NCBI RefSeq assembly: GCF_002150005.2
Contig: NZ_MSPP01000001.1
Location: 1 to 64,000, forward strand
Origin: Marivivens niveibacter
GTDB lineage: Bacteria; Pseudomonadota; Alphaproteobacteria; Rhodobacterales; Rhodobacteraceae
Direction: 5' to 3'
DNA length: 64,000 nucleotides
Below, piece after piece: positions 1,097 through 44,246 of the stretch. A model generated the notes under the pieces. The model worked only from the letters and a program-made list of their open reading frames with translations. It was not told the DNA's origin and made no database searches. Position 1 is the first letter of the stretch, and the number at the start of each line of letters is the position of its first letter. Made by a program: the position numbers and the translations under genes.

Positions 1097-1663
1097 ATGA
1101 ACAAATTTGGATTTGCCCTGTGCGCAGGTGCAGCTGCGATGTCGTTGTCGGCATGTTTGGGAAGCGAGGAAGAAGGCGAGGCGGTTATTCCTGCGGAGTA
1201 TGCATCGTTAGAAACCCTATACAACGCCATTGATGAGGGCGATTTAGAACAAGCGTCTGCATCGTTGATGACGGGTAGTGCGACGATGACAGGTGTTGTC
1301 GTTATTTCTGACATTGGGGAGTCAGAGGACATGCAGGCTGTTGGTGACCTAAGCCTGACTGCCGATTTCGATGGTGGCACCGCGTCGGGGAGCGCGACGA
1401 GCTTTGAGCTTTATAGCGAAACTGATGGATCGGCGATCGATGATGGTGCGTTGACAGGCACGCTTACCGTTGCAGGTTCGGTCGGAAATGGCGGAATGAG
1501 CGCGGATCTAGACGGTACGCTGTCGGATGACGACCCTCACGTGATTGATATGACAATGAACGGCACGTTCTATGACAACGGTGGTGATGTTGCCGTTCAG
1601 GGCGATGTATCTGGTACGATTGATGACGAATACCACGAAGGCGGTTTTGTCGCGACCGAGTAA
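1097..1663 (+). CDS. Putative surface lipoprotein with TbpB-like beta-barrel, Slam substrate candidate
   Basis: A 188-residue lipoprotein. Residues 1-19 form a lipoprotein signal with lipobox LSAC and lipidated Cys20, followed by an acidic linker (GSEEEGE). The rest is Gly/Asp/Ser/Thr-rich with alternating beta-strand pattern, for example LTADFDGGTASGSAT and GTLTVAGSVG, and ends GDVSGTIDDEYHEGGFVATE. That ending resembles the last strands of the 8-stranded transferrin-binding-protein-B-like barrel (GxVSGxxY...GGxF). It is followed after 3 bases by a Slam-like outer-membrane protein, the usual partner that moves such lipoproteins to the cell surface. Ligand unknown: heme- or metal-protein binding is possible, and there is no direct evidence for iron control. 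Confidence 0.7.
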   Translation: MNKFGFALCAGAAAMSLSACLGSEEEGEAVIPAEYASLETLYNAIDEGDLEQASASLMTGSATMTGVVVISDIGESEDMQAVGDLSLTADFDGGTASGSATSFELYSETDGSAIDDGALTGTLTVAGSVGNGGMSADLDGTLSDDDPHVIDMTMNGTFYDNGGDVAVQGDVSGTIDDEYHEGGFVATE

Positions 1664-1666
1664 CGA

Positions 1667-2755
1667 GTGATGGTACAGGCATGGGGTTTACGATGTGTTG
1701 TCGCGCTGTGCCTGTACCTGTTTTGGTCGCCGATTGGGGCGGCCCAAAACGTAAATTATGATCGGTTGGCCCGGGCCGAACAAATGCTTCAATCGGGCCA
1801 ATCGCGCAGGGCCGAAGCCTATTTGTTGTATCTGACACGCGAAACGAGTCAGGCCGGTATTTACCTAGATGCATTGACCAAAGCGATTAAACGCCACCCT
1901 TGGCAGGTCACAGGCGGGTTTGCTTTACGACCTAGCTCCAACGCGAACCGTGCTGCGACCGCGCGTGTATTTGAAACGTCTTCTGGTGATTTTGAAATTG
2001 AAAATGGGGGCGAAAGTCAGGCCAGCGTGGGGCTACAACTCTCTGCTGGGGTGGCTTATCGTTGGGCTGTGAAACGCGGTCGCGTCGTTTCTGTTACGGG
2101 CAATCTGTCGCGAACAGCATACGAGGACGCAGATATCAGCCATTGGGACGCATCATTATCAGCGGACTACAGGATCTATTCGGCGGATGATGATTGGCGT
2201 TTTGGCCTGCAGATAAGCAGCGCGAGGTTTGGCGATGCAGGTTCGGATCGTGATACGATAGGGGCGCGGGTGGTTTGGACGCACAGAGGTGAGGTTGACC
2301 GCACAATCACCTTACGGGCGGAACATCGCGATTATCTGACCAAGGACAATTTGGATGGGCCTTATGTCTATGGCGCGGCGGGATGGGCGCAGCGCGTTGA
2401 CGACAATGGGTATAGCTGGGGATTGTCCGTCGAACGATCTTTGCCGGATCTTGGTTATCAACGATATTGGGGCGTTGGGGTGCGGGCTGACTATCGAACT
2501 GAGATTACTGACAACATCCAGGGCGGCATTACGGCATCAATGACGGCGCGTCGGTATAATGAGGACTTTAGCGGTGTCGATTACGCAAGGCGAGATGATA
2601 TCGCGAAAATCGGGTTAACGCTGTCCGATGATAGGATCGAATTTCTGGGAGCAACGCCGACTTTTGGCTGCACCTACACGCGTCATGGTTCCAATATTTC
2701 GCTATATGAAACGGACTATGTCGATTGCCAGATCGGTTTTGACTATCGGTTTTAG
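1667..2755 (+). CDS. Slam-like outer-membrane protein (DUF560 beta-barrel), short form
   Basis: Surface lipoprotein assembly modulators export specific lipoproteins across the outer membrane. This 362-residue protein has a signal peptide (about 1-26, ending GAAQ), a short helical TPR-like stretch at about 32-65 (RAEQMLQSGQSRRAEAYLLY), then about 290 residues of alternating amphipathic strands consistent with a 14-stranded DUF560 barrel. It ends PTFGCTYTRHGSNISLYETD...FDYRF; the xRxxSNIxLYxxD element near the C-terminus and the terminal Phe are family traits. Typical Slams are about 480 residues with a longer N-terminal TPR domain, so this is a short form. GTG (1667) and ATG (1670) are both possible starts. 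It begins 3 bases after the lipoprotein stop, indicating one operon. The last 4 bases overlap the convergent next gene. Confidence 0.7.
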   Translation: MMVQAWGLRCVVALCLYLFWSPIGAAQNVNYDRLARAEQMLQSGQSRRAEAYLLYLTRETSQAGIYLDALTKAIKRHPWQVTGGFALRPSSNANRAATARVFETSSGDFEIENGGESQASVGLQLSAGVAYRWAVKRGRVVSVTGNLSRTAYEDADISHWDASLSADYRIYSADDDWRFGLQISSARFGDAGSDRDTIGARVVWTHRGEVDRTITLRAEHRDYLTKDNLDGPYVYGAAGWAQRVDDNGYSWGLSVERSLPDLGYQRYWGVGVRADYRTEITDNIQGGITASMTARRYNEDFSGVDYARRDDIAKIGLTLSDDRIEFLGATPTFGCTYTRHGSNISLYETDYVDCQIGFDYRF

Positions 2756-4278
2756 GCGGCAAGCCCCGTGATGATCTGATTGAATTTCTGGCTGATGACA
2801 AAATGACCGGCATCATCAAATTCCGCCAAGGTGGCTTGGGGGATATCGTTGCACAGCTCTTTAATTTCGTCGATGGGGCAGATTGGGTCGGTGGTCCCAT
2901 GTAAAAATGTCACGGGCACATTCAGGTTTCTCAAATCAGATACCCAGTCGCGCTGTAGATTGATCAGTTCATCCATGGACGCGTGCACGGCTTGGTTCGC
3001 GATCAATTTCAACCATTGATGCAGGTTGCCTGTATCAAATGCCGCTTTGATCGTTTCCTGATCATGATCTGAATGTCTGTACATATGCCCCAGCGCAGGT
3101 TTTGCCAAAGTCGGAACACGGGCGATCAAATTATACAACCGTGTCAGGCCGTTGATGACCCGTTCATTTTGCCTGACGCGGGTAGAGACTTCGCTAAACA
3201 GGGTTGAGCGTTTCCACGCATTTCCGGATTGCGGCGTTGCTGCAAGATACAGATGCGACACTAATTCTGTATGTGCCCGTGCAAACCGAACCGCCCAAGC
3301 GCACCCCGCACTATCGCCCATGACGATCATTGGGTCCTCGGACAGATAGGTGACCGTTTCGGCTAACTGAGCGATTAAACGCGCCTGCCTGATGTCAGGG
3401 GATGCGATTTCACCGAAACCCAAAAAATGGCGCGGTACCATCAGCAGACGTAGATTGGCCTGTTTTAGACGCAGTGCAAAATCATCCGAAAAAATGACCG
3501 GTGCAAGAAGGCTGTGAAAATACAAAATAGGGCGGCCGGTTCGTGCCCCAAAATCCCAAACGGGAATTTCGACACCGTCGCCAATCGTGATGCGGTTTAT
3601 GATAATGTCGCGGCCGTAATGTTTTTTGGCTAATGCAATTTCCGCATCACGTTGCGATTGAGCAAACAATTCATCCAAAATCCGCGCGGCGACATCCATC
3701 GCGATTGATTTCAGCATAGCTGATTGCGAATGCAGCCCCAGTTTGTCCATGACTTTCTGGATCTGTTTGCGCTTTGTGTCGTAACTGGCGCCAACGGATT
3801 CAGCCGCTGTGCGTAGGTCGTCGCCTTGTAAAAGATGCGCCAGCAGAATGTATTCGCTGTTGGTCAATGCCGCGTTTTCGGCCGAATTGGATGCAATTGA
3901 CGATAGACGATCGGCATCTAGGTGCAGCGCGAAAAATTTTGTGCCTTTGGGGGCGTCAGGCCATCGTTCAATGCGATCATAAATGAAAAACAGCGCGTCG
4001 TTTTTTACTGCAAACGCGCATCCGTTCGCCGAAAGCCCGCCGTCGCATATTGTGTCTGGAAAGATAGGGTCCAGATCACGCGCGTACGTTAGTTTATTGT
4101 CCTGATCGAATAACGCGATGGGGAAACTGCACTGCGCGAATGCACGGAATACGAACCGTTCGTAGGGCGAATTATCAGACTCGGTCGCGGCATCGACAAA
4201 CCGTTCGACCGACAAATCGGGCAGGGCGCTGTGCACGGTTTGCGATAGTTTCGATTTGGAATTGGGTGAGTCTTTCAT
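2752..4278 (-). CDS. LuxR-type HTH / alpha-beta hydrolase fusion regulator (catalytic triad intact)
   Basis: A 508-residue protein of unusual build: an N-terminal sensory-looking region (1-135, including PIALFDQDNKLTYARD), a LuxR-type HTH in the middle (about 138-195, LTNSEYILLAHLLQG ... KVMDKLGLHSQSAMLKS), and a C-terminal alpha/beta-hydrolase domain (about 225-505). The hydrolase has nucleophile elbow GDSAG with Ser323, acid Asp464 in HGTTDP and His492 in DDAGHF, so it looks catalytically complete. There is no signal peptide; it should be cytoplasmic. The domain may bind or cleave a small ester or lipid ligand to set DNA binding (inference). It is divergent from a small LuxR gene and near a paralogous fusion and an oxylipin-type enzyme. 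Confidence 0.8.
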   Translation of the reverse strand: MKDSPNSKSKLSQTVHSALPDLSVERFVDAATESDNSPYERFVFRAFAQCSFPIALFDQDNKLTYARDLDPIFPDTICDGGLSANGCAFAVKNDALFFIYDRIERWPDAPKGTKFFALHLDADRLSSIASNSAENAALTNSEYILLAHLLQGDDLRTAAESVGASYDTKRKQIQKVMDKLGLHSQSAMLKSIAMDVAARILDELFAQSQRDAEIALAKKHYGRDIIINRITIGDGVEIPVWDFGARTGRPILYFHSLLAPVIFSDDFALRLKQANLRLLMVPRHFLGFGEIASPDIRQARLIAQLAETVTYLSEDPMIVMGDSAGCAWAVRFARAHTELVSHLYLAATPQSGNAWKRSTLFSEVSTRVRQNERVINGLTRLYNLIARVPTLAKPALGHMYRHSDHDQETIKAAFDTGNLHQWLKLIANQAVHASMDELINLQRDWVSDLRNLNVPVTFLHGTTDPICPIDEIKELCNDIPQATLAEFDDAGHFVISQKFNQIITGLAA

Positions 4279-4321
4279 CTGAACGTTCCCAAACGGATGT
4301 GCGTTCAGGCTACACGTAACT

Positions 4322-4337
4322 ACCTAATTATCTAGGT
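4322..4337. promoter_or_regulatory. Candidate LuxR-family operator: ACCTA-N6-TAGGT palindrome
   Basis: ACCTA (4322-4326) and TAGGT (4333-4337) form an inverted repeat in the 156-bp divergent intergenic space between two LuxR-type genes, about 45 bp before the minus-strand start. The outer ACCT...AGGT resembles the ends of a lux box but the spacing is shorter (N8 rather than N12). Assignment is by position and symmetry only. Confidence 0.35.
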
Positions 4338-4360
4338 TTTATGCTGATTATTCTCATCAT

Positions 4361-4378
4361 GCCCCCCATTTGGGGGGC
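4361..4378. repeat. Perfect hairpin GCCCCCC-ATTT-GGGGGGC between divergent LuxR genes
   Basis: A 7-bp all-GC stem with a 4-nt loop, without a T-run on either strand, about 57 bases before the plus-strand LuxR start. It could be a leader hairpin of that transcript or a second operator. It does not look like a terminator. Confidence 0.45.
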
Positions 4379-4434
4379 GAAACGGTGTGCCGTAGCCTGC
4401 AATTTAGGCGTGAAGGGTATTTGGGCACGCAGTT

Positions 4435-4974
4435 ATGTTATTATCGCCATCAAAACAGATCGAACGGGCATCCGCGTTATCGCCTGACTTGGATCGGGCT
4501 GGTTTGGCGTTGATTGATGCGTCGGGCTGTGTTGTGAGCTCGAATACCGCGTTTGGGCATATTGAAAACCAGATTGAGTGTGTTTCAACGCAAGAAAACC
4601 AACTGACCATTAGGCCAAACGAACAGTTTTATCGCGCTAGGAACGCGGCTGCGAATGGGCGTCCTGTGTCGTTTGATGTCGCTTGTGGGGGCGGTGTTTC
4701 GTTGCAAGTCAACACGTTGCCAGTATCGGGCGGCTTGGTCGCAGTTATCCTATTTCTGAACGAGGCGCCCCGCGCAATTCCACAACTGTCGAATCGCGAA
4801 TTGGACCTGTTGCGACTCTCGTCCAAAGGGTACAGGCGCGACCGTATTTCGCATGAATTGGGTATTTCTGTCGCAACAGTCGATTTCCACGCCGCCAATC
4901 TGCGACGCAAATTAAAAGCCCGTACAACGATCGAGGCTGTTATTATTGCGACCCGTTTGGGTTTGGTTGCCTAG
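4435..4974 (+). CDS. Small LuxR-family regulator with PAS-like N-terminus
   Basis: A 179-residue protein. Residues 15-110 look like a PAS-type sensory fold (LALIDASGCVVSSNTAFGHI, later LQVNTLPVSGGLVAVILFLN). Residues 115-175 are a LuxR/GerE HTH: LSNRELDLLRLSSKGYRRDR, ISHELGISVATVDFHAANLRRKL. No receiver domain or membrane segment is visible, so it is probably a cytoplasmic ligand- or cofactor-sensing solo regulator. It is transcribed divergently from the upstream HTH-hydrolase fusion and is 113 bp ahead of a second fusion on the same strand; the three form a regulator cluster. The ribosome binding site before ATG 4435 is weak. Confidence 0.8.
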   Translation: MLLSPSKQIERASALSPDLDRAGLALIDASGCVVSSNTAFGHIENQIECVSTQENQLTIRPNEQFYRARNAAANGRPVSFDVACGGGVSLQVNTLPVSGGLVAVILFLNEAPRAIPQLSNRELDLLRLSSKGYRRDRISHELGISVATVDFHAANLRRKLKARTTIEAVIIATRLGLVA

Positions 4975-5087
4975 CTATGCCTACTTACGCGGGTAACATT
5001 GTTCGTGCGAATCTGCCTTAAATTGGTTCACACAACCGCAATCCTTGCATAAGCTTGGCCCGATAAACCAAAGTTATAGGGCTTTTG

Positions 5088-6698
5088 ATGGCCACCGATC
5101 CATCCAGTGACGTGAATTCGGCGCTTTTGTCATTGTATCAATGCGCGATTGATCCGACCCATTTTGGCCGCTTTCTGGCAACGATGGAGGCGTGGTTGAT
5201 TTATCACGCAACGCCGGATGGATTGCAAAGCATCGAGGCGCAGTCGCAGCCGTTATGGGATCGGTTAACGTCGTTGCACCTTGCGCAGCTAGGGGTGGAA
5301 CGGCGTCTGTCAAAGCCGCCAATATTCGTGTTGAACGCTGATGGGCGGCCTGTTGTTGCCGAAGGTGGCCGTGATTGGGATGCTTTTGAACAAAACGTAT
5401 TTGCCTCTGATTTAACGCGTCTGAAAACGTGGTTGAAAAAATGCGCGTTGGGTGCGGAAACATTAGTCCGCGTAACCACGAACCGGACCGAACCCCAAAT
5501 TTATTTGGTCCGTAAAACCAACATGAATGAGTTTATCGTTGTTGATACGGGAACAGAGCTCAGCACGTCGGTCGAACAAATCCTAATGGACAGCTTTTTG
5601 ATCTCGGCCTCGGAGATGACTGTTTTGCGGCTATTGGTCACCGGCGAGGCGGTGAATGATATCGCGGACCAGCTGGGGAAATCGCGCGAAACAATTCGGT
5701 CTCAGGTCAAATCGTTGGCGCAGAAAATGTCTGTTAATCGGCAGCAGGACATCCAGCGCGTTGTCGATAGCATTCAGGCCCATAGTTCTGTCGAAGAAGA
5801 ACAGCCCGTTCCGCGCGGCCAGCTGCGGATGATCATGCGTGATGCGGGGCGGAAACTGGGCTACCGCGTTTATGGCGATCCTGACGGTCATGCGGTCGTG
5901 TGGTGCAACGATTTTTCGGGCGGCAGTTATTTGCCTTTTGATACTGACGCAGTGTTTCGGGCCCGCAAAATGAAAGTCATCGTTTTGAACCGTGCAGGCT
6001 ATGCAACCTCTGACGCTGTCGGGTTAGAGGGGCGCCGCCTGATCGATAGCCATTGTGCGGATTATCTGGCTGTTTTGGATGCCGAAGGCGTTGAAGAGTT
6101 CACCCCAATGGGCATGGGGACGGGTATGGCATTGGCCTATACCTTGGGCATTTTGCGGCCCAATCGCGCGCGGCTGGCCTTCGGGTTAAATGTCTATCCA
6201 CCCGTTTTGTCGCGCAAAGACGCCCTACAATACAAATCGGGCATGTACCGCGTTGGCGCATTGGCCAGTCACTATGCCCCGCAAACGTTGCGGGTTTTGA
6301 CCAATTTTGTCATCGCTCAGGCGGCGCGGGTCAAAACCGCCAAACAACTGTTGGCGATGGCCGACAATGACGTGGATCCTGCCCATCTGGACGACGCAGG
6401 ATCGTATTTTCGGGAATATCTCAAGCCCAATCTGGATGACATCCTTGCAGGCAAGGGAACTGGGTCTGCCGCGGATTGCACATATTTGTCCGTTGATTGG
6501 GCGCAGTCTCGGCGCGATGATCTGATCCGTCCTAAAACGATCTTGATGCAGCACGCGGATTTTCCGTTTGTGCAGGCTCAATTCGTGCGGGATTTCGCAG
6601 CAACCATCGATGCGCGGTTTGTTGTCATCCCGAAAAAATTTCGCCAGTCTCACCGCGATGTCGCGTCACTGGCCGATCAGATATTGGCCGAACTTTAA
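5088..6698 (+). CDS. LuxR-type HTH / alpha-beta hydrolase fusion regulator, nucleophile lost
   Basis: A 536-residue paralogue of the intact fusion at 2752-4278. It has an N-terminal sensory region (1-165), a LuxR HTH at about 172-228 (SASEMTVLRLLVTGEAV, NDIADQLGKSRETIRSQVKS) and a hydrolase-fold C-terminus (about 245-535). Where the other copy reads VMGDSAG this one reads PMGMGTG, so the Ser position is Gly; a late His (QSHRD) and a possible acid (HADFP) remain. It should bind rather than turn over a ligand (inference). Start ATG 5088 follows an in-frame TTG. Its 3' end overlaps the convergent COX-P450 gene by 4 bases. Confidence 0.8.
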   Translation: MATDPSSDVNSALLSLYQCAIDPTHFGRFLATMEAWLIYHATPDGLQSIEAQSQPLWDRLTSLHLAQLGVERRLSKPPIFVLNADGRPVVAEGGRDWDAFEQNVFASDLTRLKTWLKKCALGAETLVRVTTNRTEPQIYLVRKTNMNEFIVVDTGTELSTSVEQILMDSFLISASEMTVLRLLVTGEAVNDIADQLGKSRETIRSQVKSLAQKMSVNRQQDIQRVVDSIQAHSSVEEEQPVPRGQLRMIMRDAGRKLGYRVYGDPDGHAVVWCNDFSGGSYLPFDTDAVFRARKMKVIVLNRAGYATSDAVGLEGRRLIDSHCADYLAVLDAEGVEEFTPMGMGTGMALAYTLGILRPNRARLAFGLNVYPPVLSRKDALQYKSGMYRVGALASHYAPQTLRVLTNFVIAQAARVKTAKQLLAMADNDVDPAHLDDAGSYFREYLKPNLDDILAGKGTGSAADCTYLSVDWAQSRRDDLIRPKTILMQHADFPFVQAQFVRDFAATIDARFVVIPKKFRQSHRDVASLADQILAEL

Positions 6699-9565
6699 CC
6701 ACGTGGTTTGATCGTAGCCGTCATTTTCCCGATAGGAGCCGCAACGTTCAGCGAATATTTTCGGGTGCTCCATTCCGCAGGTTTGGCCAGAGTCCAATCG
6801 AATTTTTCCAGCATGGTCTGGGCAAACATTGCCCCGATATAGGCTGCTACATCTTTGCCAGGGCATCCGTGGTCGTGCGGCGTGACTGATGCGGAATGTT
6901 CCGAATGGGACCAGATCAAATTTGGATCGTGGAATGAACGGTTTGGGTTGAACTCGTGCGGTTTGTCGTAGGCCTCTTCGTCTGATTGTACGAAAGGGAT
7001 AGCGCCGGTTAGGTGTTCGCCTTTGCGGATTTCAAAGTTGCCAGATTTGGATTGCAGGGTGAAATCCTTTTGTGCGACGCCGAAGATAAAGAAAACGGGC
7101 GGGTGCAGACGCAAGGTTTCTTTGATCAAAGGTTGCAACAGATCCAGTGCATTATCCGTTTCGGCCAAACGCCCGCGCAGATCGGTTGCGTAATCGCTGT
7201 TGTTTGACAGTTCACCGATGATGGATTTCAGCAGCGATTGAATCCCAAGGTAGTTATTCATACCGACCAAGAACAGCAGTTGCTGCGCCAATTCATAGGT
7301 GTCGTGGAGGCGGTCTTTGGCCGCCAGCGCGCTATATTCGCGGAATTTGTCACTATCGACAATCATCGACAACACACCGTCCAAAGTACGCTTTGACGAT
7401 TTCAATTTCGACCATGGATTCAAACGAGCCAAGATGCGCGGTTGATGCGAAAAAATGTGGTTATACAGATCGCGCATATCATCGGTGTCGATTTTGACAC
7501 CGAAATACCATTCGAACAGGAACTCCATCGCGAACCGTTCGATGTCATCTGTGAAATCAACGGTGCCGCAGGCTGCCCAAGTGTCAGCATGTCGGTTCAG
7601 GACAGATTTAAATGTTGATTGAAAATCGCCCCGCCGCATAAGCAAGATCTTTTGGTACAGCGCTTTGTATTTGTTGTGTTTGTAGGTGTTATCGAACACC
7701 GATGGTTTTACGCGGCCTGTCAACTCACGCGGGACGGTGATCGCGCCAAAGCTGGCTGTCTTGGCCAGTCGGCCATCCCAGTTCGTAAATACCTCGCATC
7801 CTTTGGCGTCCATGATGACAACGCCTGATTTGAACGCGTGGGCGCGGAACACGGTGGAATCGTAACGGTCTTTGCGGGTGTTGTGATATTTGGTCCAACC
7901 GCTGATCGCAGCCATATCAACGGTTTCGACAATCCGTCGCAGGGGTGCCAATTTCTGCGGGCCAGGGACCTTTTTGATCGCCTGAAAACTACAAACAACG
8001 GCGTTTGGTTTTTTGGAATTGCGCGCGACAATCTGACGGAAACTGGTCGTTGAATTGATAATGTCCATACCGACAGGGCTGAACGTATCAGGGCCATAAA
8101 TGTTTTTCGACAGTAGTGGATTGGTCAGCGCGTGGGTAAAGGCGTCATAGGCCACCATCCGCAGCATCAATTCGCCCAGCATCATGCCGTCATCGTGTTT
8201 TTCCGCGAAAATGCCAGGCATCCATTCGATGTCATCGGGATGTTTGTACAACTCGCGTAGTCGGTTCGCCAAAACAGGATCGTCGACCAGTTCATTGAAG
8301 TCACGGATGCGCGGCAGCCTGAACAGTTCGCGGTAATCATTCAGCGATCGTAGCTTGGCGTCTCGTCCCATTCTCAAGGACAACTCTTGCACCGACGGAT
8401 TGTTGCTGTTCGCGGGCATCGGATCAAGGAACATATGGTGTGTGTTACCCAGACCGATTTTACCCGCCTTTTGTTGCGATGCGGCGGTGATAATCGTGTC
8501 GATACCCAATTCCTGAATCAGCTTTGGGTTGGCCCGATAATCCATGTGGGTCAGTTTGCGCCCTGCGATTTCCAGATGGTCTGGCACCATCGAATGCCAG
8601 CGGTACAGCAGCGTAAATTCTAAATTGATCCAATTTCCCCGATACCATGGCTGTTTTTCTGCCCAGCCCAATTCGGCTTGAAACGGAAATTTTACTACGC
8701 CAACTTGGGCTACGTATTCGCTTAGGACGATGTTTAACAGCAGGACGATCATAATCATCCGCGCCGTTGCGAACAGACGATCATCATCCCATTCGGGGTA
8801 GGCTGCCGCCAACTCATCACAAATGCGGTTATGTTCGCGCAGGAAAATCACGCTCAGCATTGTGTAGCCGATTTGGTTGTTCCCGTGTTCCAGCCCAGTC
8901 GCGTAGACGTATTTTATGCGGTCTTCGGAAAAATGCGCGAGGTTGCGAGCCAGCACTGCGCGATCATGTAATTTTTCAAATTCGGGATTGGCGAACACCC
9001 AGTTGTCTTTGGTCGTTTTGTCGGGGTCGAACAAATAGGGCGGATACATTTCGCCGTCGTGCATCGTGTACCGCAGTTTGCCGCCCGATTTAGACCGCAG
9101 GATATCCGTCTGATGTTGGGTCTGGCCGTATAGCTGGCAAAAATCAATTTCATGATTGGAATTGTTTTTGCGGGTGTCTTCGGTGTTCGTGCGCAGAAAA
9201 CTGTCGGTGAACCATTGCGCGAAAAACGCGAACAATACGCTGGTATCAACCGAAGGGACCTCTTGGCCTTCGGTGCGGCGCCATAATTCGGCAACCTCTT
9301 TGATATCTGGTTTTGGCCGTAGATTTACATCTTCGGGCAGTTGTCGACCCGTGTAGCTGCGGTCTGTTAGGGACGACCACGATGTATAGTTCGATTTCAG
9401 CGAAAACTTCCGCGGTCGTTCGGGCGCATAGCTGGTGTAGCGCCCAATAATATTTCGGTTCAGTTGCTTGTGCACAAAGGGGATTTTGATCGCCTGATGG
9501 ACGACGTAAGGGTACCGATCAACCAACTGTGCTATAGAAAACGCCAACTCACTATCCCCAACCAA
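6695..9565 (-). CDS. Cyclooxygenase-like heme dioxygenase fused to CYP74-like P450 (putative oxylipin synthase)
   Basis: A 956-residue two-domain protein. Residues about 100-520 match the animal heme peroxidase/cyclooxygenase fold: LFAFFAQWFTDSF (111-123), LREHNRICDELAAAYPEWDD, and LEFTLLYRWHSMVPD, with Tyr321 and His324 at the places of COX Tyr385 and the proximal His388. Residues about 530-950 match a CYP74-type P450: I-helix GMNNYLG (768-774), KETLRLHPPV with Glu816/Arg819, IRKGEHLTG, and heme ligand Cys901 in HGCPGKDV, close to the CYP74 QCAGKDFV form. The likely role is to oxygenate a fatty acid to a hydroperoxide and convert it in cis to an allene oxide, diol or epoxyalcohol, as in fungal DOX-P450 fusions. 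Position 121, the distal His in COX, is Asp. No signal peptide. Substrate and product unknown. Confidence 0.85.
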   Translation of the reverse strand: MVGDSELAFSIAQLVDRYPYVVHQAIKIPFVHKQLNRNIIGRYTSYAPERPRKFSLKSNYTSWSSLTDRSYTGRQLPEDVNLRPKPDIKEVAELWRRTEGQEVPSVDTSVLFAFFAQWFTDSFLRTNTEDTRKNNSNHEIDFCQLYGQTQHQTDILRSKSGGKLRYTMHDGEMYPPYLFDPDKTTKDNWVFANPEFEKLHDRAVLARNLAHFSEDRIKYVYATGLEHGNNQIGYTMLSVIFLREHNRICDELAAAYPEWDDDRLFATARMIMIVLLLNIVLSEYVAQVGVVKFPFQAELGWAEKQPWYRGNWINLEFTLLYRWHSMVPDHLEIAGRKLTHMDYRANPKLIQELGIDTIITAASQQKAGKIGLGNTHHMFLDPMPANSNNPSVQELSLRMGRDAKLRSLNDYRELFRLPRIRDFNELVDDPVLANRLRELYKHPDDIEWMPGIFAEKHDDGMMLGELMLRMVAYDAFTHALTNPLLSKNIYGPDTFSPVGMDIINSTTSFRQIVARNSKKPNAVVCSFQAIKKVPGPQKLAPLRRIVETVDMAAISGWTKYHNTRKDRYDSTVFRAHAFKSGVVIMDAKGCEVFTNWDGRLAKTASFGAITVPRELTGRVKPSVFDNTYKHNKYKALYQKILLMRRGDFQSTFKSVLNRHADTWAACGTVDFTDDIERFAMEFLFEWYFGVKIDTDDMRDLYNHIFSHQPRILARLNPWSKLKSSKRTLDGVLSMIVDSDKFREYSALAAKDRLHDTYELAQQLLFLVGMNNYLGIQSLLKSIIGELSNNSDYATDLRGRLAETDNALDLLQPLIKETLRLHPPVFFIFGVAQKDFTLQSKSGNFEIRKGEHLTGAIPFVQSDEEAYDKPHEFNPNRSFHDPNLIWSHSEHSASVTPHDHGCPGKDVAAYIGAMFAQTMLEKFDWTLAKPAEWSTRKYSLNVAAPIGKMTATIKPRG

Positions 9566-9736
9566 GCAACTGAACCAATCGGGCAGACCAATAATTGCCC
9601 AACTGGTTAAATCTTTGTCGCATAACGCATACCGTTCAATGGTTGAGGCGCGTCAGCGGTCACCCATTTGGGTGAAAACAATGAAAAAACTGTCTTGGAT
9701 CGATTGAGGGCTAATTGGCTTTGTCATCATTGCGTT

Positions 9737-9751
9737 CGGTGGTAACCACCG
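9737..9751. repeat. Palindrome CGGTGGT-A-ACCACCG before the thioesterase gene
   Basis: A perfect 7-1-7 inverted repeat 31-45 bp upstream of the yciA-like start, in the 216-bp divergent space shared with the COX-P450 gene. It could be an operator for either gene. Confidence 0.4.
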
Positions 9752-9778
9752 ACGGGGACAATTTTCGACGGGGGCAAT
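9750..9778 (+). repeat. 13-bp direct repeat, 16-bp period, abutting a start codon
   Basis: CGACGGGGACAAT (9750-9762) is repeated as CGACGGGGGCAAT (9766-9778) with one difference, ending 3 bases before the thioesterase ATG. The second copy includes the likely ribosome binding G-run. It may be a tandem regulator site or a simple duplication. Confidence 0.4.
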
Positions 9779-9781
9779 GCA

Positions 9782-10216
9782 ATGACTGATCAAGCCGACA
9801 ACCTAGCGCGCGGTATCGAACGCGCGTCTCATGGACGCCAACAGGAAGACGGTGTTTTGGTGATCCGAACCATCGCGATGCCCGCGGATACAAACCCTGC
9901 GGGTGATATTTTTGGCGGATGGCTGATGTCGCAAATGGATTTGGCCGCTGGAAATTTGGCGGGCCGTGTGTCCCAAGGCCGCGGCGCAACCGTCGCCGTC
10001 GAAGCGATGCAATTCTTGCGCCCTGTTAAGGTCGGCGACGAGGTCACATTATACGCAACGCTGAAATCCGTTGGACGCACATCGATGCGAATCCACGTCG
10101 ACGTGTGGGCGCGATCCCGTTTTGCCAAAGAAGGTGCCAAAGTGACCGATGCGGATTTTGTCTTTGTCGCGTTGGACGAAGACGGTAATTCGCGCGCGAT
10201 TTTTCCCGGATCGTGA
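9782..10216 (+). CDS. Acyl-CoA thioesterase, YciA-like hotdog fold
   Basis: This enzyme hydrolyses acyl-CoA to free acid and CoA in the cytoplasm. The 144-residue single-hotdog protein has IRTIAMPADTNPAGDIFGGW, LMSQMDLAAGNLA (the catalytic Asp region of the YciA/BACH family) and the strand pattern around VEAMQFLRPVKVGDEVTLYA. Length fits the family. It is transcribed away from the oxylipin-type gene, and a shared fatty-acyl link is possible but unproven. The gene after it, a mechanosensitive channel, is on the same strand after about 118 bp and probably separate. Confidence 0.9.
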   Translation: MTDQADNLARGIERASHGRQQEDGVLVIRTIAMPADTNPAGDIFGGWLMSQMDLAAGNLAGRVSQGRGATVAVEAMQFLRPVKVGDEVTLYATLKSVGRTSMRIHVDVWARSRFAKEGAKVTDADFVFVALDEDGNSRAIFPGS

Positions 10217-10334
10217 TCCAGCCGCTGCAATTGGGAATTTTTCACCACCCGTTCGGGAATGGACGTGGGGGGAGTGTTCCGCAGAATCCTGTTCCGTGAT
10301 AGCGGCATGATAAAATATGATTGGGGATTTTGGT

Positions 10335-11660
10335 ATGTGGACGGATCAGGAATTACCGCCCTTTGTGCAAACAGCACTGGATTACGGTCAACAAGGTGTT
10401 GATCTGGCTAAATCATGGCTGCTGAGTCCCGCTGCGTGGTCACAGTTTATATTGCTGGTGCTGGCCTACCTTTTGGCGCGCTATGCCGCCAAAAAAGTCA
10501 CGCCCAAGATCAATGATTTCTTGCAACCCAAAGAGGGCGCTTCGGGGCTGATCGCGGAATTGCGCCGTCTGGCAGCGTCTTTCCTGCCATTGGTTCTGCC
10601 TTTGCTGGCCTATGCGTTTACTGGCATTGGGGAAAGCGTAACGCGCGCGGCGTTTGGTTCGGGTGCCGTTATCGCATTCGGTAAACGGGTGTTTTTGGTG
10701 CTTGCGGCCCAAGCACTGACGAAACATGTGTTGAAAGACCCATTCCTGCGGTTGCTGGGCAAATATGTTCTGATGCCGGTGATGGTTCTTTACGCGCTGG
10801 GCGTATTGGACCCTGCTATTGCGAAATTGACCGAAACAACCATTGGTGTCGGTAATATCCAGTTTTCGCTGATCACCGTTATTCGCGGCGTGATTGCGGG
10901 ATCGTTGTTGTTTTGGCTGGGCCAGTGGTCCACCGGACAGTCGCGCAACTATATCGGCAAACAAGAGGAATTGCGCCCCGCCACCCGTGAATTGGCAACC
11001 AAAGCGGCAGAGGTCGCGATCTTTGGCCTCGCGTTCATTTTGCTGATGAACATTATGGGCATTAACCTTAGCACTTTGGCTGTTCTGGGTGGTGCCATCG
11101 GTGTTGGTATCGGCTTTGGTTTGCAGCAGATCGCGTCGAATTTCATCTCGGGCATTATCCTGCTGCTAGAGGGGCAGGCGACCGTCGGCGACTATGTCGA
11201 ACTGGACGGGGGCGAGGCTGGCACCATTGTCAAAATGACCGCTCGTGCGGCGATTTTGGAAACCTTTGACGGGAAATGGATCGTTGTTCCGAACGAACAT
11301 TTCATCACAACGCGCGTGATCAACTATTCCGACAGCGGATCCGCCAACAGGTACGAAGCCCCGTTTTCCGTGTCCTATGACACTGACATCAACAAGGTAC
11401 CTGACATCATCAATGCGGCCGTCGCCAAACTGGATTTCGTGTTGGACGATCCCGAAGGCCCCGATTGCGAACTGGTCGGGTTCGGGGATAGCGGTATCGA
11501 TTTCAACGTGGAATTCTGGGTGAATGGTATCGATGACGGACGTCACAAATATACGTCGCACGTCAATTTCGCGATTTGGAACGCGCTAAAGGATGCGGGC
11601 ATCGAAATTCCGTACCCGCACCGTGTTGTCGAAATCAAAGGTGGATCGTTGCAGGGCTAG
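10335..11660 (+). CDS. Mechanosensitive ion channel, MscS family
   Basis: A stretch-gated channel of the inner membrane that releases solutes on hypo-osmotic shock. The 441-residue product has an N-terminal periplasmic or amphipathic stretch, about five membrane helices (for example SQFILLVLAYLLARYAAKK, FLPLVLPLLAYAF, AAEVAIFGLAFILLMNIMGI) and the MscS pore helix and beta domain: LAVLGGAIGVGIGFGLQQIA then GDYVELDGGEAGTIVKMTAR. The extra N-terminal helices make it a medium-size MscS type. ATG 10335 is chosen because GGGGA lies 7 bases before it; an in-frame ATG at 10317 would add six residues. It is convergent with nadC. Confidence 0.9.
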   Translation: MWTDQELPPFVQTALDYGQQGVDLAKSWLLSPAAWSQFILLVLAYLLARYAAKKVTPKINDFLQPKEGASGLIAELRRLAASFLPLVLPLLAYAFTGIGESVTRAAFGSGAVIAFGKRVFLVLAAQALTKHVLKDPFLRLLGKYVLMPVMVLYALGVLDPAIAKLTETTIGVGNIQFSLITVIRGVIAGSLLFWLGQWSTGQSRNYIGKQEELRPATRELATKAAEVAIFGLAFILLMNIMGINLSTLAVLGGAIGVGIGFGLQQIASNFISGIILLLEGQATVGDYVELDGGEAGTIVKMTARAAILETFDGKWIVVPNEHFITTRVINYSDSGSANRYEAPFSVSYDTDINKVPDIINAAVAKLDFVLDDPEGPDCELVGFGDSGIDFNVEFWVNGIDDGRHKYTSHVNFAIWNALKDAGIEIPYPHRVVEIKGGSLQG

Positions 11661-41543: not shown

Positions 41544-42977
41544 ATGCTGCCTCGATTGTCAGGATTGGCCCTGCCATTCGGGGCGGGCATTGTTCTGTCT
41601 TTCGGACAAGAACCATTTCATTGGCCAGTCGTGGTTTTGCCCGCGCTGGCCATTCTGATTTGGGCCATCGCGCGGGCTGCGGATGCCCGCCGTGGTGGGG
41701 CGTATGCCTTTGCTGCGGGCTTTGGTTATTTTCTGCCAACGCTCAGCTGGATCATAAACCCGTTTTTGGTCGAACCTGAACTTTACGCTTGGATGGCACC
41801 GTTTGCTGCGGTGTTGCTGCCTGCTGGTTTGGCATTGATATGGGCCGCTTTTGTTTGGGCGGCGATGAAATGGTCGCGCAGCGTTGCTGGCGTGACTTTG
41901 GGATTGATGGCCGCAGAAGTGTTTCGCGCCTACGCCCTGACAGGGTTTCCGTGGGCGCAGGTTTCGCACGCGATGCTTGATACCATTACCATGCCGCTGT
42001 TCGCTGTGATGGGGGCCATGGGTCTGACCTTGTTGATGTTGGGCGTGGCGGGTGTCGCTGCAAGCCGCGCGCGATGGTGGGTGCTGTTCATTTTGGCGCT
42101 GCCCGCCGTGCCCTATTCGCCAGCGGCGACAGAGGTGACGCAATCGACCGTCCGTTTAGTCCAGCCGAACGCATCCCAAGCTGACAAATGGGTGCCAGAA
42201 AAGGCTGAGGAATTTTATCAGCGGATGCTGTCTGCTTCGATGGCGATGCCTGCGCCGGATTTGATTGTTTGGCCTGAAACGGCCATTCCGACCCTAATGA
42301 ACTATGCAGAATACACGCTGAAAGAAGTGTCAGCAGCGACGCCGACATCGACGGTGATCCTAGGCCTGAATCGCAGTGCTGATGGGCTGTATTACAACAG
42401 TATGCTGGCGCTGAAATCTGATGGGACGCGGTCTGTTTATGACAAATCCCACCTTGTACCGTTCGGTGAATATATTCCGGGTGGTGAACTGGCGTGGAAA
42501 TTGGGCATTCGTGGATTTGCGGCTCGCGATGGCGCGGCCTACGCTGCTGGTCCCGGTCCAGAGGTCATCGATGTTCCTAGCGTGGGACCGATCCTACCGT
42601 TGATCTGTTACGAAGGTATTTTCCCTTCCATGTCGGCCAGTGGGGTTCGGCCTGCCGCATTGGTATTGATTACAAATGACGCATGGTTTGGTCCGTCGGC
42701 GGGTCCCAAACAGCATTTTGCCCAAGCACGCATTCGCGCCATCGAACAAGGCGTCGCAATGGTCCGCGTCGGGAATACGGGCATATCCGCAGTGATTGAT
42801 GGGCGCGGAACGGTTGTTGCGGATGTACCGTTTCAGACCGACGGCTACGTTGACGCGGCTTTGCCTATTGCTCTGCCGACTACTTTTTACACCCAGATGG
42901 GTAGGTTTTTGGGATTTATTGTAATCCTCACAGCACTGTGCGCCGTAATATTCAGCAATCGGTCAAATGGCCGTTGA
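41544..42977 (+). CDS. lnt: Apolipoprotein N-acyltransferase
   Basis: An inner-membrane enzyme that adds the third acyl chain to lipoproteins, needed by the lipoproteins elsewhere in this window. 477 residues: about six N-terminal helices, then a periplasmic carbon-nitrogen hydrolase domain with the triad Glu in VWPETAIPTL, Lys in VYDKSHLVPFGEYIP and Cys in PLICYEGIFP, and a final membrane helix. It is last gene of the phoH-ybeY-corC-lnt block. Confidence 0.96.
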   Translation: MLPRLSGLALPFGAGIVLSFGQEPFHWPVVVLPALAILIWAIARAADARRGGAYAFAAGFGYFLPTLSWIINPFLVEPELYAWMAPFAAVLLPAGLALIWAAFVWAAMKWSRSVAGVTLGLMAAEVFRAYALTGFPWAQVSHAMLDTITMPLFAVMGAMGLTLLMLGVAGVAASRARWWVLFILALPAVPYSPAATEVTQSTVRLVQPNASQADKWVPEKAEEFYQRMLSASMAMPAPDLIVWPETAIPTLMNYAEYTLKEVSAATPTSTVILGLNRSADGLYYNSMLALKSDGTRSVYDKSHLVPFGEYIPGGELAWKLGIRGFAARDGAAYAAGPGPEVIDVPSVGPILPLICYEGIFPSMSASGVRPAALVLITNDAWFGPSAGPKQHFAQARIRAIEQGVAMVRVGNTGISAVIDGRGTVVADVPFQTDGYVDAALPIALPTTFYTQMGRFLGFIVILTALCAVIFSNRSNGR

Positions 42978-43064: not shown

Positions 43065-44246
43065 ATGTCACGACTGGACTACACATTCACTTCGGAATCC
43101 GTATCCGAAGGTCACCCCGATAAAGTATGCGACCGCATCTCTGACTCGGTTCTAGATGCGCTTTTGGCCGAAGAGCCAGAAGCCCGCGTTGCCTGCGAAA
43201 CATTTGCGACGACCAACCGTGTCGTCATCGGGGGCGAAGTTGGCCTGTCCGATCAGTCCAAACTGGCAGAGTATATGGAATCGATGCCTGATATCGTGCG
43301 CGGCGCGATCAAAGACATCGGTTACGAACAGGATAAATTCCACTGGGAAACCGTGGAAATCACCAACCTGCTGCACGAACAATCGGCCCACATCGCCCAA
43401 GGCGTGGACGAAGCTGATGGCAAAGACGAAGGAGCAGGCGACCAAGGCATCATGTTCGGTTACGCGACCAACGAAACCGAAGCGTTGATGCCCGCACCGA
43501 TCCAATACAGCCACGCCATTCTGCGCCGTCTGGCCGAAGTCCGTAAAAACGGCACCGAACCAGCGCTGGGCCCAGATGCCAAGGCGCAGCTGTCGGTCAT
43601 CTATCGCGGCGGTCAGCCTGTTGGCGTATCGTCGCTGGTTCTGTCGACCCAGCATTTGGATGAATCGCTATCGTCCGCTGACGTTCGCGCGATCGTTGAG
43701 CCGTACATCCGCGAAACTCTGCCTGATGGCTGGTTGTCGGATGCGACCGAATGGTGGATCAACCCAACGGGCAAATTCGTCATTGGCGGCCCTGATGGTG
43801 ACGCAGGTCTGACGGGCCGTAAAATCATCGTAGACACCTACGGCGGCGCGGCTCCACACGGCGGCGGCGCGTTTTCGGGCAAAGACCCGACTAAAGTTGA
43901 CCGCTCGGCCGCTTATGCTGCGCGTTACCTGGCGAAAAATGTTGTGGCGGCTGGTCTGGCAGACAAATGCACGATCCAGTTGTCCTATGCGATTGGTGTT
44001 GCGAAACCACTGTCGATCTATGCCAACACCCACGGCACCAGCAAAGTCGATGAGGCTGCGATTGAACGCGCCGTTTCGGGTGCGATGGACCTGACCCCAC
44101 GTGGTATCCGTACCCATCTGGGTCTGAATAAACCGATCTATGCCCGCACCGCAGCTTATGGTCACTTTGGCCGTGAACCTGATGCGGACGGCGGTTTTTC
44201 GTGGGAACGCACCGATCTGGTCGATGCGCTGACCAAAGCGGTCTAA
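43065..44246 (+). CDS. metK: S-adenosylmethionine synthase
   Basis: It makes SAM from methionine and ATP. 393 residues from ATG 43065: [36 protein letters not shown] (ATP motif), [20 protein letters not shown] and [20 protein letters not shown] (the second signature). ATG 43053 is in frame but lies inside the riboswitch, whose GGAG at 43055-43058 is the ribosome binding site of the later ATG. Controlled by the SAM/SAH riboswitch, giving feedback by product. A perfect terminator follows. Confidence 0.97.

Follow-up and report, generated by a model that had tools for sequence, protein, structure and literature searches.

A cyclooxygenase-like/CYP74-like fusion enzyme beside LuxR-type regulators in Marivivens niveibacter

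Results

We analysed positions 1-64,000 of contig NZ_MSPP01000001.1 of Marivivens niveibacter (the window, to which coordinates refer unless another locus is named). Here a single open reading frame (ORF; 6695-9565, minus strand) encodes a protein of 956 amino acids, called the enzyme below, with a cyclooxygenase (COX)-like first half and a second half resembling cytochromes P450 of the CYP74 clan. Three regulator genes all lie on its downstream side: ABH2 (5085-6698, plus strand, 537 amino acids), LuxRs (4435-4974, plus strand, 179 amino acids) and ABH1 (2752-4278, minus strand, 508 amino acids). The ABH2 and enzyme ORFs overlap tail to tail by 4 bp. On the upstream side are a 4HBT thioesterase gene (9782-10216, plus strand; 4HBT match at 1.2e-18), divergent from the enzyme gene across a common intergenic region of 216 bp, and a gene that we take to be MscS-like. 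A preliminary description of this DNA had positioned the enzyme and regulator ORFs, all four of them, and the tail-to-tail overlap correctly, but its picture of an enzyme enclosed by three regulators is not compatible with this layout.

The enzyme matches the Pfam families An_peroxidase (6.1e-49) and p450 (1.6e-13), and a phmmer search of the PDB returned cyclooxygenases (2.6e-55) and CYP74A2 (1.2e-18), in agreement with the fusion proposed previously. For the first half (amino acids 1-530; 7976-9565, minus strand) the closest solved structures, both by phmmer and by a fold search of the structural model, are prostaglandin synthases. The phmmer/PDB alignment places Tyr321 and His324 of a YRWH motif (8594-8605, minus strand) at the positions of Tyr385 and His388, and this motif is invariant in two alignments of bacterial COX relatives, comprising 15 and 23 proteins. 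In the same phmmer/PDB alignment two marks of prostaglandin H synthases are replaced, the distal His207 of ovine COX-1 by Asp121 (our residue numbering; 9203-9205, minus strand) and Ser530 by Ala475, and Tyr43 aligns to the position of Arg120. The distal Asp is invariant in the smaller alignment and at least 90% conserved in the larger, where one sequence is cut before the site. It lies within FTDSF, identical to the FtdsF printed for the Nostoc 10S-dioxygenase (PMC13049297; here and below, papers are cited for what the accessible parts of their text state). With its An_peroxidase match, YRWH, and FTDSF at the distal heme face, this half carries the marks of the bacterial 10S-dioxygenase type, and we find its predicted identity as a cyclooxygenase relative of that type convincing.

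For the second half (amino acids 531-956; 6695-7975, minus strand) a profile matched CYP74A in the PDB at 1.6e-49, the next family being CYP120 at 5.4e-23, and the alignment to CYP74A is free of gaps from a W to the heme Cys. Asn770 (7256-7258, minus strand) aligns to the I-helix Asn of CYP74A, and Cys901 (6863-6865, minus strand), the P450 heme ligand, lies in CPGKD; both are invariant across the four bacterial fusions described below, as are Glu816, Arg819, Arg876 and Pro-Pro-Val. The marks listed for the CYP74 clan (PMC8124189), namely the I-helix Asn, the ERR triad, PPV and the heme Cys, are present, and the prediction that this half is a CYP74-clan P450 is likewise convincing.

A contig scan over 84,980 species (by the collection's own description) confirmed 475 COX relatives, of which 80 were kept for analysis. 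Three of these are also fused to a P450 half, giving four bacterial fusions with the window: one on a 4.7-kb contig of an alphaproteobacterial metagenome-assembled genome (L031), one in Methylocapsa palsarum NE2 (L032) and one in Mesorhizobium loti CJ3sym (L033). In the remaining 77, tblastn with the P450 half found nothing at E <= 0.01, some of their contigs being short. Among 240 genomes of the class, the P450 profile found only the window's own at E <= 1e-25. In samples of the family, class and phylum, which overlap and each include the window's own genome, COX relatives were present in 8 of 248 genomes from the family at E <= 1e-10, five of the eight spanning nearly the whole COX half, and, at E <= 1e-30, in 3 of 385 from the class and 4 of 398 from the phylum. 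Within the genus the enzyme is present in one of seven members; the enzyme, ABH1, the thioesterase and the gene at 10317-11660 were not found in the six others at the thresholds used, in a search run without a positive-control gene.

The COX ORF was placed in 80 of 95 loci, the other 15 being missed, and at 26 of the 80 it is adjoined by a lipoxygenase-type, catalase-related or P450 gene. Fourteen loci of Nitrosomonas, Nitrosospira and Nitrosovibrio (L034-L045, L047 and L077) have a same-strand downstream gene belonging to one cluster, of which two of the 14 members were scanned, both lipoxygenases. A catalase-related cluster stands beside the COX gene at ten loci, with one member identified as Catalase by Pfam (L093), two by annotation (L016 and L019) and one without a Pfam match (L021). 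P450 genes adjoin COX genes at two loci, above the Pfam cut-off at L104 and slightly below it at L020, where the gene is annotated as P450. In addition, a Tle1-like phospholipase domain is N-terminal to the COX domain in three of the five long cyanobacterial COX proteins scanned (L100, L101 and L105, not L062 and L066). The recurrent association with enzymes that oxidise or release lipids is the strongest evidence for oxylipin production by the COX family, and the neighbours at the 26 loci support a predicted role in oxylipin synthesis. At each of the three Tle1-like/COX fusions (L100:5798-8596, L101:5081-7915 and L105:3-2720) a gene of the catalase-related cluster lies downstream.

A general association of LuxR-type genes with COX genes was also considered, over the 95 loci and with L074 dropped as identical to L026; such genes made up 8 of 335 near and 7 of 1101 far genes (Fisher p 0.011). 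We do not count this excess as support, because the hidden Markov model (HMM) used was partly built from those genes and because, of the eight, two belong to the window itself, one (L026) is LysR by Pfam and four are related Nocardiaceae genes.

A GerE helix-turn-helix (HTH) scores above the Pfam cut-off in LuxRs (5.9e-13) and ABH2, as does the alpha/beta-hydrolase domain of ABH1. The LuxR-like HTH of ABH1 has no Pfam match and was detected only with an HMM trained on other GerE segments (1.1e-6) and in a BLAST alignment with a GerE protein (17/54 identical). The degenerate hydrolase domain of ABH2 falls below every curated cut-off, and is assigned from a relative with Abhydrolase_1 (L125) and from a low-confidence model (predicted local distance difference test, pLDDT, 55.7). 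Each of the two LuxR-HTH/hydrolase fusions of the preliminary description is in this way upheld by Pfam for one of its domains and by the evidence just given for the other. The third protein, described there as a small PAS-like LuxR regulator, is indeed a small LuxR-type protein, but PAS had no match at E <= 0.1 in the Pfam scan; nor does the Pfam autoinducer-binding domain of acyl-homoserine-lactone-type LuxR solos figure among the families matched by ABH1, LuxRs or ABH2 at that threshold.

The hydrolase triad of Ser, Asp and His is kept by ABH1 in the window and at two further loci (L121 and L122), whereas the nucleophile Ser is missing from ABH2 and from the four relatives aligned with it. 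This loss makes a receptor role likelier than catalysis for ABH2, which is most likely a ligand-binding regulator with a hydrolase pocket predicted to be incapable of cleavage. The suggestion that the hydrolase domains bind or cleave the enzyme's product is narrowed by this result, cleavage by ABH2 being unlikely.

ABH1 matches occur in 4 of 198 family genomes including the window's own, at 45% identity in G042, 41% in G156 and 25% in a distant third. G042 and G156 each have a divergent LuxRs relative beside ABH1, so that the pair is seen at the window, L121 and L122, and neither the enzyme nor ABH2 is present in the stretches examined (20 kb and 8.9 kb, respectively). In the window the pair adjoins genes for a Slam-type surface lipoprotein (a weak Pfam match, below cut-off) and SlipAM (1097-2755, plus strand), as it does at L121 (7489-9448); in G042 these genes come before ABH1 in the same order as in the window and with the same 4-bp tail overlap. 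ABH2 relatives were found in five other genomes of the 198, at 29-30% identity, and their loci (L125-L128 and partly L124) have neighbours in common with each other and not with the window. None of the other three fusion loci contains a homologue of ABH1, ABH2 or LuxRs (tblastn E <= 0.01, L031 being the 4.7-kb contig).

An 18-bp GC-rich palindrome lies between ABH1 and LuxRs (4361-4378) and recurs at L121:11179-11196 and L122:925-942, with identical 7-bp arms at all three loci and a variable centre. A search of the window and of 167 loci found the pattern nowhere else, seven listed loci being copies of the same three places. We read it as a putative operator of the ABH1/LuxRs pair, a leader hairpin also being possible. 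A second inverted repeat with 7-bp arms, in the gap between the enzyme and thioesterase genes (9660-9675), holds a 10-bp core common to 4361-4378. In the 3.07-Mb genome this core occurs 13 times, against 3 for the pattern read backwards, and four of the 13 copies are intergenic by our ORF calls. Three of the 13 have at least three further symmetric pairs: both window sites and a third that sits in a ~41-bp gap separating convergent ORFs and looks like a terminator. If the core is treated as fixed by the conserved putative operator, the chance of an extra copy falling in the other two gaps of the gene group (326 bp) is 12 x 326 / 3.07 million, or ~0.001, calculated after the fact.

Three further observations concern these repeats. 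A looser form of the core, CCCANNTGGG, occurs four times in the window against 0.91 expected, the two additional copies being at 42892-42901 and 44113-44122. A perfect inverted repeat with 8-bp arms and a 1-bp spacer lies near the thioesterase start (9736-9752). The idea that 9660-9675 is an old thioesterase operator was rejected, since its central pattern is found at 0 of 23 other thioesterase loci, most of them only 47-81% identical.

Discussion

We think it probable that this locus comprises two adjacent modules, a bifunctional oxylipin synthase (module A, 6695-9565) and a lipoprotein/ABH1-LuxRs module (module B, 1097-4974), with ABH2 between them. The oxylipin chemistry proposed earlier for the enzyme is well supported by domains, motifs and structure matches. 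From the gene order, domains, motifs, relatives and palindromes described above we infer a working scheme of substrate, product, binding sites, autoregulation and any linkage between the modules. The COX-like half would oxygenate an unsaturated fatty acid to a hydroperoxide via a Tyr321 radical and, having no distal His, would probably be poor at reducing this hydroperoxide and pass it to the CYP74-like half. The latter would isomerise or cleave it, in a step that needs no NADPH, to an allene oxide, epoxy alcohol or aldehyde. Module B would pair the surface-lipoprotein genes with the divergent ABH1/LuxRs regulators, autoregulated at the conserved palindrome, and ABH2 would act as the non-cleaving receptor suggested above. 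The regulators are probably in the main a separate module, perhaps drawn into control of the enzyme in this one genome; such a local link is possible in view of the common 10-bp core and the ABH2/enzyme overlap. We regard the claim for the enzyme as strong and that for a circuit as weak.

Several observations weigh against the two-module reading. A toggle residue, F or L, separates allene oxide synthases from lyases (PMC10813956); at this site the ungapped alignment to CYP74A gives Gly, with Phe one residue further, and the product type is not readable from it. The enzyme model is poor in parts of the P450 half (pLDDT 33-60 around amino acids 531-630 and 821-900), the fold search barely probed that half, and the ORF starts with TTG. 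Neighbours at 54 of the 80 placed COX loci fall outside the three partner groups, most single neighbours being unscanned. Module B is based on two other genomes, with the lipoprotein genes in one of them. The separation of enzyme and regulators is challenged from two sides: the 10-bp core has two copies in the 64-kb window against 0.23 expected (4 of 100 shuffles reach two), and a gene for a 299-amino-acid GerE protein (L032:8831-9730) immediately precedes the Methylocapsa fusion gene on its strand. By blastp this GerE protein is similar to ABH1 and ABH2 in the HTH alone and has no significant similarity to LuxRs.

Like the enzyme, the linoleate 10S-dioxygenase (10S-DOX) of Nostoc punctiforme is COX-related, has FTDSF and is paired with a further heme enzyme acting on the hydroperoxide (PMC13049297), but that partner, a hydroperoxide lyase (HPL), is catalase-related and separate, whereas in the window it is a CYP74-like P450 and fused. 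The fungal dioxygenase (DOX)-CYP fusions, which include linoleate diol synthases (LDS), allene oxide synthases (DOX-AOS) and epoxy alcohol synthases (DOX-EAS), also join a dioxygenase and then a P450 in one chain (PMC13049297, PMC9524268). They differ at the distal heme position, where an AxxIthd motif supplies His (PMC13049297) and the enzyme has Asp; its P450 half is nearest to plant CYP74A among solved structures, a comparison covering no fungal sequences. Among the apparently stand-alone CYP74-clan enzymes of proteobacteria, Methylobacterium nodulans HPL has its clan in common with the P450 half, and the accessible text of its source names it as a P450 and makes no mention of a fused dioxygenase (PMC10813956). 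We place the enzyme as a rare bacterial counterpart of the fungal fusions, assembled from known parts. In the literature searched, where subscription journals were mostly outside coverage, we found no bacterial COX-CYP74 fusion and no LuxR/hydrolase oxylipin receptor, in line, to this extent, with the preliminary description, to which no bacterial system of this build was known. A bacterial oxylipin-sensing circuit has nevertheless been described, the oxylipin-dependent quorum-sensing system (ODS) of Pseudomonas aeruginosa with its 10S-DOX, 7,10-diol synthase and regulator OdsR (PMC6377657). As in the window, an oxylipin synthase stands beside a transcriptional regulator; the ODS enzymes, however, are relatives of di-heme cytochrome c peroxidase (PMC4496055), the regulator is of the LysR type and the circuit there is experimentally shown (PMC6377657).

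Among other explanations, detoxification or catabolism of algal or host fatty acids, with the divergent thioesterase supplying free acids and no signalling involved, is possible though rather doubtful. The thioesterase gene and its common intergenic region with the enzyme, the Tle1-like domains fused to cyanobacterial COX domains, and the absence of the enzyme, ABH1, the thioesterase and the 10317-11660 gene from the searches of the six other genus members, which suggests that the stretch may have been jointly gained, all favour it. On the other side, 22 of 61 relatives' genomes (own included) carry a thioesterase relative, and the enzyme accompanies none of the 23 other thioesterase loci (flanks of ~1.5 kb).

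We consider it unlikely that the locus is a self-contained make-and-sense circuit, in which the product of the enzyme would be the ligand of ABH2 and/or ABH1/LuxRs, acting at 4361-4378 and 9660-9675 on the enzyme. This was the proposal of the preliminary description, and the conservation expected of it is not seen in either direction: these regulators are at none of the three other fusions, and the ABH1-LuxRs pair occurs in two genomes that have no enzyme. Near other bacterial COX genes, LuxR-type genes are scarce and differently built, including the single one that adjoins another fusion (L032). The core at both sites, its excess in window and genome and the ABH2/enzyme overlap speak for a circuit, as does the adjacency of regulator and synthase genes, a feature of ODS-like oxylipin quorum circuits, the P. 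aeruginosa regulator gene adjoining its synthase operon (PMC6377657). The core, however, was chosen after looking; only 13 of 18 bases match between 4361-4378 and 9660-9675, a level reached at nine other places in the window, and the palindrome centres at L121 and L122 differ from the window's core. We judge improbable, too, a hormone-like form of such a circuit, in which a COX-CYP74 signal would be read by the catalytically dead hydrolase domain on the LuxR-type HTH of ABH2, with ABH1/LuxRs tied in via the core. If true, it would be a compact bacterial analogue of the plant combination of oxylipin synthesis with hydrolase-fold hormone receptors.

Bacteria of this group are, to our knowledge, not makers of arachidonate, which counts against the view that the products of the COX half are prostaglandin-like endoperoxides, like those of true cyclooxygenases. 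That view, suggested by the prostaglandin synthases among its closest solved structures, is very improbable in light of Asp121, Ala475 and Tyr43 at the positions of His207, Ser530 and Arg120 and of the studied bacterial relative, a 10S-dioxygenase (PMC13049297).

If the bifunctional enzyme of the two-module reading accepts the host's monounsaturated acids, as we suppose, a bacterium would obtain CYP74-type products from one polypeptide. A 2026 paper in J Biol Chem proposes that a bacterial P450 formerly joined to a member of the peroxidase-COX family may have given rise to the P450s that accompany fungal dioxygenases (PMC13049297); with four bacterial fusions existing today, of which two are in named strains, this proposal becomes testable by phylogeny and biochemistry.

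Two proposals about the history of the fusions were rejected. Plasmid-borne fusions were not seen: 12 plasmid records have COX relatives at E <= 1e-20, none with one place spanning 80% of the query, and the P450 half had no plasmid match at 1e-5. A single fusion origin is not reflected in the COX tree, where the COX halves of the four fusions do not form one group (approximately unbiased test, p 6e-7); the P450 half may have been lost, or fusion may have happened repeatedly, as both fit. In a quick COX tree the window and L031 fall with the Nitrosomonas clade, and L032 and L033 next to Mycobacterium. A further Nitrosomonas locus (L078) is placed elsewhere in the COX tree and stands outside the lipoxygenase-type neighbour cluster.

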